In this document: positions 62,226 to 64,000 of the stretch, piece by piece | Position numbering within the stretch: position 1 is the stretch's first letter | Layout of the letters: every line of letters starts with the position of its first letter | Origin: Curtobacterium sp. VKM Ac-1395 | GTDB lineage: Bacteria > Actinomycetota > Actinomycetes > Actinomycetales > Microbacteriaceae | Assembly: GCF_015350975.1 (NCBI RefSeq) | Contig: NZ_JADKRX010000011.1 | Coordinates: 907-64,906, forward strand | Direction of reading: 5' to 3' | Length of the DNA stretch: 64,000 nt | Program-made: the position numbers and the translations under genes | The notes under the pieces: generated by a model | The model's database searches: none | What the model was told of the DNA's origin: nothing | Seen by the model: the letters and a program-made list of their open reading frames with translations, nothing else

Positions 62226-63698
62226 ATGACAGCTGAAGATCGCACAACTCCGGAGTCCGACGTGGCTCCCTCCGACCAGCCGGATCCGAACCGCTGGAAA
62301 GCCCTCGTCATCTGCCTGCTCGGCGGCGGGATCGTCCTCCTCGACGTCTCGATCGTCAACGTCGCGCTGCAGTCCATCTCGACCGGGCTCCCCGGCACCT
62401 CGCCCGAGGCCGTCCAGTGGATCCTGTCCGGGTACGCCCTGTCCTTCGGGCTCCTCCTCGTGCCCGGCGGCCGACTCGGTGACGCCACGGGCCGACGCCG
62501 GATGTTCGTCATCGGGGTCGGGCTCTTCACCGTCGCGAGTGCCCTCTGCGGGTTCGCGCCGAACGGCATCGTCCTGGTGGTCGCGCGCCTGGTGCAGGGG
62601 CTCGCGGGCGGTCTGCTCACCCCGCAGGTCACCGCGCTCATCCAGCAGCTGTTCCGCGGCAAGGAGCGGGGCACCGCCTTCGGGCTCTTCGGGGCGACGG
62701 TCGGCATCGCGACCGCGATCGGTCCGCTCATCGGCGGCTTGCTCATCACGGCGTTCGGCACCGAGAACGGGTGGCGCTTCGTCTTCTTCGTGAACCTGCC
62801 CGTCGGGGTCGTGACGATCCTCCTGGCCTTCCGCTACCTGCCGGGCATGACCAGCACCGAACGGGGTCGCAAGCACGACTTCGACCCGGTCGGCATCGTG
62901 CTGCTCGGTGCCGCGGTGGTCGCGCTGCTCCTGCCGTTCGTGCAGTCCTCGGAGTGGAAGGGCAACACGAAGTGGTGGCTCGTGGTCGTCGCCGTCGTGC
63001 TCGGCGCGCTCTTCGTCCTGTGGGAGCGGCGCTACGAGCGGACGAAGGAGCCCCTGATCGACCTGGGGCTGTTCCGCCGTCGGTCGTTCTCGCTCGGCGT
63101 CGGCCTGGCCACGCTCTACTTCGCCGGTTTCACCCCGCTGTTCTTCGTCCTGACGCTCGCGCTGCAGTCGGGCCTGCACTACTCGGCGCTGATGGCAGGC
63201 CTGTCGTCGGTGCCGTTCGCGATCGGTTCGGGCATCGCCTCGACCATCGGCGGTCGGATCGTGCACCGCTTCGGTCGGCAGCTCATCGTCATCGGGACGA
63301 TCCTCGTGCTCCTCGGGCTCGGCGCGGTCATCTGGGTGGTCGCGAACCACTACCGGTCCGACCTCGGCTGGTGGCTCGTCCTGCCGCTGCTCGTCGCCGG
63401 CATCGGCTCCGGGCTCACCATCTCCCCGAACCAGACGCTCACCCTCTCCGAGGTGCCCGTCGAACAGGGCGGCTCCGCGGGCGGCCTGATCCAGGTCGGC
63501 GCCCGGGTCGGTTCCGCAGTGGGCATCGCCGCGGTCGGCAGCGTCTTCTACTCGATCCTGGCGAACTCGAACGGTGACTACGCCAAGGGCCTGCCGCTCG
63601 GGCTCGGCGTCTCGCTCGGCTTCGTCGCCGCGGCGCTGGTCGCCGGGATCGTCGACGTGGTCGTCGGCAAGGCCCGGGGGACCGAAGCGACGGTCTGA
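62226..63698 (+). CDS. DHA2-family MFS drug exporter
   Basis: 490 residues with about 14 transmembrane segments. Motif C and the antiporter region read WILSGYALSFGLLLVPGGRL and GRRRMFVIGVGLF; LIGGLLITAFGTENGWRFVF matches the EmrB/QacA group. It probably exports lipophilic drugs by proton antiport. Short gap after the zinc-ribbon SDR gene. Confidence 0.9.
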   Translation: MTAEDRTTPESDVAPSDQPDPNRWKALVICLLGGGIVLLDVSIVNVALQSISTGLPGTSPEAVQWILSGYALSFGLLLVPGGRLGDATGRRRMFVIGVGLFTVASALCGFAPNGIVLVVARLVQGLAGGLLTPQVTALIQQLFRGKERGTAFGLFGATVGIATAIGPLIGGLLITAFGTENGWRFVFFVNLPVGVVTILLAFRYLPGMTSTERGRKHDFDPVGIVLLGAAVVALLLPFVQSSEWKGNTKWWLVVVAVVLGALFVLWERRYERTKEPLIDLGLFRRRSFSLGVGLATLYFAGFTPLFFVLTLALQSGLHYSALMAGLSSVPFAIGSGIASTIGGRIVHRFGRQLIVIGTILVLLGLGAVIWVVANHYRSDLGWWLVLPLLVAGIGSGLTISPNQTLTLSEVPVEQGGSAGGLIQVGARVGSAVGIAAVGSVFYSILANSNGDYAKGLPLGLGVSLGFVAAALVAGIVDVVVGKARGTEATV

Positions 63699-63712: not shown

Positions 63713-63758
63713 ACGGACGGGAGGCTCGGTGCCAGCTGGCACCGAGCCTCCCGTCCGT
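63713..63758. terminator. palindrome family copy, 46-bp perfect
   Basis: 23-bp perfect arms (ACGGACGGGAGGCTCGG... mirrored) with no spacer, 14 bases after the transporter stop. The longest member of the family. Confidence 0.88.
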
Positions 63759-63828: not shown

Positions 63829-63834
63829 TACGTT
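63829..63834 (+). promoter_or_regulatory. -10 element of lactococcin-like gene
   Basis: TACGTT, 6 nt before ATG 63841. Confidence 0.5.
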
Positions 63835-63840
63835 CGCTGC

Positions 63841-64000
63841 ATGAGATACATCACATGGAAGCGGGGCGCGGCGAACGGCGGGCGCCTGCGGACCACGCAG
63901 CGAGTCGGCGGCGGCGTGTGGATCTACGGCATCGGCGGCGGGAACTCGTACTCGTACTACGACCACAGCGGCAAGACGCACAAGTCGACGGCCTGCGCCG
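63841..64000 (+). CDS. lactococcin-972-like protein, 3' end outside window
   Basis: 53 codons are visible. The pattern VGGGVWIYGIGGGNSYSYYD followed by HSGKTHKSTAC matches the lactococcin 972 family (Gly-rich turn, W-x-Y-G, paired aromatics, H-ST). The N-terminus is basic (MRYITWKRGAANGGRLRT) and has no hydrophobic signal peptide, which is unusual for a bacteriocin precursor. A -10 element at the leaderless distance supports this start. Immunity and ABC genes, if any, would be beyond the edge. Confidence 0.6.
   Translation, partial: MRYITWKRGAANGGRLRTTQRVGGGVWIYGIGGGNSYSYYDHSGKTHKSTACA

Follow-up and report, generated by a model that had tools for sequence, protein, structure and literature searches.

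The right-hand end of a 64,000 nucleotide stretch of the Curtobacterium sp. VKM Ac-1395 genome (referred to here as the window; G000:C3:907-64906) contains the start of a gene which, read against its orthologues, is probably a natural export-minus allele of a lactococcin 972-family bacteriocin gene. A single internal in-frame deletion of 54-56 codons has removed the whole signal peptide together with most of the linker, and the start codon, a promoter-like box, the reading frame and the mature domain all remain. We consider it probable, at roughly three chances in four, that this is a Sec-type bacteriocin allele whose in-frame loss of the signal peptide has left a non-exported, non-producing and possibly immune 'cheater' operon. 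The first-pass annotation of the window had described a lactococcin-972-like protein without a signal peptide; that finding proved to be real and can be well explained.

Genetic context and family membership

The contig that carries the window (G000:C3) has a total length of 67887 bases and continues to the right of it. The window encoded the 5′ part of the gene on the forward strand (63841-64000, of which 63841-63999 read MRYITWKRGAANGGRLRTTQRVGGGVWIYGIGGGNSYSYYDHSGKTHKSTACA), where the gene was cut by the window edge. In the extended locus (L017:4748-5017) it encoded a protein of 89 amino acids with the C-terminal end ...GGNTAFWDTK* and had its stop codon at the equivalent of window position 64110. 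This continuation completed the family domain and did not break its sequence pattern. An incomplete gene was the closest of the three explanations put forward in the first-pass annotation, in that 54-56 internal codons were lost, but neither end of the gene is missing.

A TACGTT box (63829-63834, forward strand) was read 6 nt 5′ of the ATG, and the surrounding TTGTACGTTC was kept in the orthologues of two other genomes, G013 and G055. The box is a plausible -10 element and would yield a leaderless transcript; a scan for the consensus detected no two-hexamer sigma-70 site around the gene start. The earlier wording that a -10 element fixes the start was too strong, even though the box itself is credible; conservation in G013 and G055 backs the start at 63841. 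The upstream neighbour is an open reading frame of 490 amino acids (62226-63698, forward strand), whose sequence features suggest an MFS-type transporter. It was found at the same place in G013 and G055 and served as the flanking reference for divergence.

A perfect palindrome, GAGGCTCGGTGCCAGCTGGCACCGAGCCTC, lies between this 490 amino acid ORF and the bacteriocin gene (63721-63750). It had 17 exact sites in the VKM Ac-1395 genome, one each in G010 and G011 and none in the other 17 of the 20 genomes searched, a set that left out G013 and G055; related copies were present at the same place in both of the latter. The end of the contig falls inside a copy of the palindrome, and contig C12 opens in a related stretch. 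This pattern suggests an intergenic REP-like element that is expanding.

The 89 amino acid protein matched PF09683 over residues 23-86 with 38.3 bits (cut-off 22, E 2.1e-9) and TIGR01653 with 32.4 bits, only just above the cut-off of 32.1. It shared 96% and 98% identity with its orthologues in G013 and G055 over residues 10-89. A tblastn search of a plasmid collection with the protein at E 0.01 gave no match. Its predicted model (mean pLDDT 79.9) aligned with Formosin D (9hkj; Z 12.1, rmsd 2.0 over 78 residues) and with lactococcin 972 (2lgn; Z 8.3, rmsd 2.2 over 65 residues), both of which ranked above the next chain compared (Z 6.0). The weaker fold matches (Z 6 and below) were to mixed beta proteins and were set aside as common arrangements. 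The model thus predicts that the protein keeps the lactococcin 972 beta-sandwich fold, and the likeness to both bacteriocins extends to the domain sequence. Formosin was not described as a bacteriocin among the matches listed in our literature search. Two cysteines in the domain, C52 and C59, were invariant in the five aligned sequences of the subgroup, a pair that fits an oxidising location outside the cell. Lactococcin 972, in contrast, is said in a review to lack cysteines (PMC8538875), and the protein encoded at the window edge differs further in having no signal peptide. Because the family models were passed but the defining signal peptide is absent, the gene is, in our classification, a deletion allele of a lactococcin 972 family member and not a functional member.

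Absence of the signal peptide and evidence for its deletion

The absence of a signal peptide was judged by hydropathy and not by a signal-peptide predictor. The best 15-residue Kyte-Doolittle mean was 0.54 inside the 89 amino acid protein. Because the frame extends without a stop well into the upstream neighbour, an in-frame start further 5′ was also considered. Over the 130 in-frame codons preceding the domain, a stretch that takes in the first 22 residues of the protein, the best mean was 0.8 and no hydrophobic segment was present; an upstream signal peptide, the finding that could have overturned the original observation, was not present there.

A survey of the genus with PF09683 covered 66 genomes, one per species. 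This revealed matches in 44 genomes and none at E 0.001 in the remaining 22; the 60 match rows corresponded to 59 copies, as two rows were the halves of one frameshifted gene. In 55 of the 59 copies a hydrophobic segment with a mean of at least 1.5 (lowest 1.64) was found in frame 5′ of the domain. The copies under 1.5 were the gene in the window and those in G012, G034 and G004. Among the 59 copies, no other combined a retained original start with an intact frame and the lack of a hydrophobic part. A cytosolic subfamily of lactococcin 972, or the cytosolic relative suggested in the first-pass annotation, is unsupported, since the nearest relatives of the protein are ordinary signal-peptide proteins.

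The genes of G013 and G055 (which appear to be those of Curtobacterium sp. VKM Ac-2865 and sp. MMLR14_010) lie at the same place, with the same upstream neighbour and with the same TTGTACGTTC box in front of their ATG; they share the mature domain and the gene order bacteriocin-permease-ATPase. The difference is that both keep 54-56 codons that the window's allele is without. Codons 1-9 (63841-63867, forward strand) encode MRYITWKRG, which aligned with MRYITFKQG in G013 and MRHITWERS in G055 and is the leftover of the original N-terminus. After codon 9 the orthologues carry the additional codons, which encode a hydrophobic signal peptide (..VTVALGAALVGVLALPATASASA.. in G013) and most of the linker. 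Compared with G013 the gap was 168 bp and compared with G055 it was 162 bp, each length divisible by three. The deletion junction falls at 63864-63868, its placement being ambiguous by a few bases. It is followed by a residual propeptide linker, ..ANGGRLRTTQRV (63869-63906), aligned with ..ANDGRLRTTQRV in G055 and ..AGDGRLRTTQRV in G013. Past the linker, G013 and G055 continue ..GRLRTTQRVGGGVWIYG.. as the window's gene does, and the mature lactococcin 972 domain, as delimited by the PF09683 match and the predicted fold, begins GGGVWIYGIGGG... at 63907 and runs beyond the window end at 64000 (all on the forward strand). No direct repeat of at least 6 bases bridging the segment was found in G013 or G055 in the 25 bases flanking each end on both sides.

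The more distant copies in G035 (78% identical) and G012 (G012:C3:697473; 56%) also have a signal peptide and linker, which makes the full form ancestral and the absence of the signal peptide derived. From these alignments, the window's allele is an in-frame internal deletion of an ordinary signal-peptide bacteriocin gene and not merely a gene cut by the window edge. The deletion allele was present in one genome only of the 66.

The downstream pair and divergence of the operon

An immunity/ABC gene pair had been proposed as something to look for to the right of the window. Such a pair was found directly downstream with both frames open. A permease-like ORF of 667 amino acids with about 6 hydrophobic segments (L017:5028-7031) begins ten bases after the bacteriocin gene, and its end is overlapped by a gene for an ABC ATPase of 221 amino acids (PF00005; L017:7021-7686). 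The order bacteriocin-permease-ATPase matches the arrangement of three genes in lactococcin 972 loci, and both downstream frames were open and of equal length in the window's genome, G013 and G055. The permease had no match to Pfam or NCBIfam models at E 1, so that membership of DUF1430 has no model support. For the ATPase, TIGR03608 was the best of 198 NCBIfam hits, at 163.9 bits and below the cut-off of 254.85; this model describes the ABC protein of the lactococcin 972 group and is named 'putative bacteriocin export ABC transporter'. The P-loop of the ATPase read APSGAGKST in the window's genome, G013 and G055 and GASGVGKST in G035; the Ala of the former sits where the Walker A motif usually has its first Gly.

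A permease of this type occurred at nine places in the 66 genomes (E 0.001), and all nine adjoined a PF09683 gene; no orphan permease/ATPase pair of this type was found among them. At the eight places other than that of the window, a hydrophobic signal segment is encoded in the bacteriocin gene itself.

Alignment of L017:4814-7686 with the corresponding locus of G055 (L090) showed 97.7-98.8% identity in the operon and 94.6% in the 490 amino acid ORF. The dS to G055 was 0.027 for the permease and 0.038 for the ATPase (about 0.03 for the operon), against 0.192 for the flanking ORF. Synonymous changes amounted to 22 at about 751 sites in the operon and 70 at about 414 sites in the flank (Fisher p 2e-16). 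As the dS of the operon is so far below that of its flank, recombination has probably carried the operon from one species to another. The deletion itself is, by the same comparison, recent: it would be younger than the split of the operon from that of G055, because the G055 copy is intact.

The last 75 codons of the gene showed no amino acid difference and 3-4 synonymous differences from G013 and G055. The neutral expectation is 0.5-2.5 amino acid changes, with a probability of 0.09-0.61 of seeing none; the deletion is too young for the absence of change to be informative on selection. The dS of the mature domain against G013 was lower than that of the permease and ATPase, a difference that was not significant (Fisher p 0.35). 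The dN/dS of the permease and ATPase was 0.26-0.44, below 1 in all comparisons, and reflects mostly the time before the deletion.

Damaged copies elsewhere in Curtobacterium

Damage to the bacteriocin gene, as judged from the aligned loci, is recurrent in the genus. The copy at G012:C3:457073-457255 (L093) has lost 106 nt, including the ribosome-binding region, the start and the core of the signal peptide, relative to its intact counterpart at G006:C1:400889-401071 (L094), the flanks of the two being nearly identical. By alignment this is a second deletion, independent of that in the window. At that locus the permease (675 amino acids) and ATPase frames are open. The copy at G036:C1:108158 has its signal peptide and a frameshift in the domain, and its downstream pair is open. 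At G004:C129:64248-64427 (L096) the 5′ part of the gene was replaced by unrelated sequence, most of the permease was lost and an ATPase-like ORF was left. In G034, a genome rated 65% complete, the bacteriocin gene was frameshifted and the permease was also split by frame. The pair was therefore open in three of the five broken copies (G000:C3, G012:C3:457073 and G036:C1:108158), and the permease was not open in G004 and G034.

The VKM Ac-1395 genome also encodes a second, different lactococcin 972 operon (G000:C1:166422-166610; L018, L082), in which the signal peptide, the permease (662 amino acids) and the ATPase (222 amino acids) are intact.

Discussion

Lactococcin 972 binds lipid II and inhibits septum formation. 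The 89 amino acid product of the deletion allele, if made, would be expected to stay in the cytoplasm because it has no signal peptide, and so away from lipid II on the outer face of the membrane; the strain would then be a non-producer of this bacteriocin. As the presumed immunity permease and ATPase are uninterrupted, the strain may remain immune, which is the least certain step of the proposed mechanism. The promoter-like box kept at the gene may be active. The preserved frame together with the 75 unchanged codons could hint at continued function, but the deletion is too young for this to be telling, and a random deletion would keep the frame one time in three. For no lactococcin 972 locus, according to PMC11796350, has an immunity role of the downstream B and C genes been verified.

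The arrangement resembles the partial streptococcin clusters of Streptococcus pneumoniae, in which the bacteriocin is lost and presumed immunity and transporter genes remain. Most such clusters were described as lacking the bacteriocin gene and keeping immunity and/or transporter genes, for which the authors suggested a cheater phenotype (PMC6120550), and scbBC without scbA was reported in 157 of 571 pneumococcal genomes (PMC11796350). As described in the latter source, producers inhibited scbBC-only pneumococci, and such strains showed no expression of the locus on their own, because the deletion of scbA had also taken the ComE site of the promoter. Their sensitivity and non-expression tell against a simple cheater in pneumococci. 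The two cases differ in that the pneumococcal deletion took the bacteriocin gene with some of its promoter, whereas the window's allele has lost only the export part, in frame, and has its promoter-like box and mature domain left.

The locus is also alike to that of lactococcin 972 itself in its three-gene cluster, there given as lcn972-orf2-orf3 (PMC4055356). A described case that shares the family and the genus is APC 4022, in which an ABC gene adjoins the core gene; it is described as two core-peptide clusters, and the parts of that report consulted mention no lost signal peptide (PMC10456417). Among the matches listed in a search of the open literature there was no lactococcin 972 gene with an excised signal peptide, and a search for a bacteriocin with loss of its signal peptide gave no match.

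The explanation nearest to the cheater reading is plain decay: the whole operon is being lost, and the pair is still open only because mutations have yet to reach it, without any selection to keep immunity. Deletion and loss of export are common to both readings, which part solely over the reason for the intact pair; we regard plain decay as a real possibility at somewhat below even odds. As the deletion is recent (dS of the operon to G055 of about 0.03), intact neighbours are expected even without selection. The G004 copy, in which the 5′ part of the gene is gone along with most of the permease, the 22 of 66 genomes without a PF09683 match at E 0.001, and the sensitivity to producers reported for pneumococci with scbBC alone (PMC11796350) all point the same way. 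Against it, the three broken copies in G000:C3, G012:C3:457073 and G036:C1:108158 keep an open permease and ATPase, and the permease/ATPase dN/dS of 0.26-0.44 is below 1, though this stems mostly from the time before the deletion. An artefact of assembly or sequencing might be suspected in a draft genome of 18 contigs, the more so as this contig ends about 3 kb further on in a repeated palindrome. Neither G013 nor G055, however, has a direct repeat of at least 6 bases bridging the segment, so the sequence there offers an assembler no means of jumping across it. The missing length is an exact multiple of three and substitutions specific to the VKM Ac-1395 genome lie beside the junction, which makes an assembly error an unlikely source of the allele; we give an artefact of either kind very little credence.

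Two further explanations would have the shortened protein still at work. Leaderless bacteriocins are active without an N-terminal extension and are exported by a dedicated ABC transporter, and the 89 amino acid protein might likewise leave the cell through the adjacent ABC/permease pair, or by leakage. The pair would then be an exporter, and the step from a signal-peptide to a leaderless bacteriocin would have been caught in the act; we hold this to be highly improbable, both for the role of the pair and for export as a whole. The name of the best NCBIfam match of the ATPase (TIGR03608), the kept frame and mature domain, and the family fold retained in the predicted model speak for such export, but at the eight other places with this permease type a signal segment is present in the bacteriocin, so that the pair does not normally replace a signal peptide. 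Mediterrocin is predicted to be Sec-dependent (PMC12345188), and lactococcin 972-like bacteriocins are thought to be Sec-secreted (PMC11796350). Another export route, as the first-pass annotation had also proposed, found no support in the sequence analysis. It is about as hard to credit that selection maintains the protein for a new role in the cytoplasm, for example as a decoy or regulator. The unchanged frame, promoter-like box and domain sequence would suit such a role, but the allele is limited to one genome, the deletion is too recent for a test of selection, and the C52/C59 pair fits an oxidising location outside the cell.

The window's operon and that of G055, whose permeases are 98.8% identical, form a natural near-isogenic pair with and without the signal peptide. 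A strain with the permease/ATPase pair but without export could be used directly to find out whether these two genes suffice for protection. The allele also carries a small warning for domain-based mining, which would count such alleles as producers since both PF09683 and TIGR01653 pass. Together with the second, independent deletion in G012, it suggests that loss of the export region may be a recurrent route by which Curtobacterium stops production of these bacteriocins.
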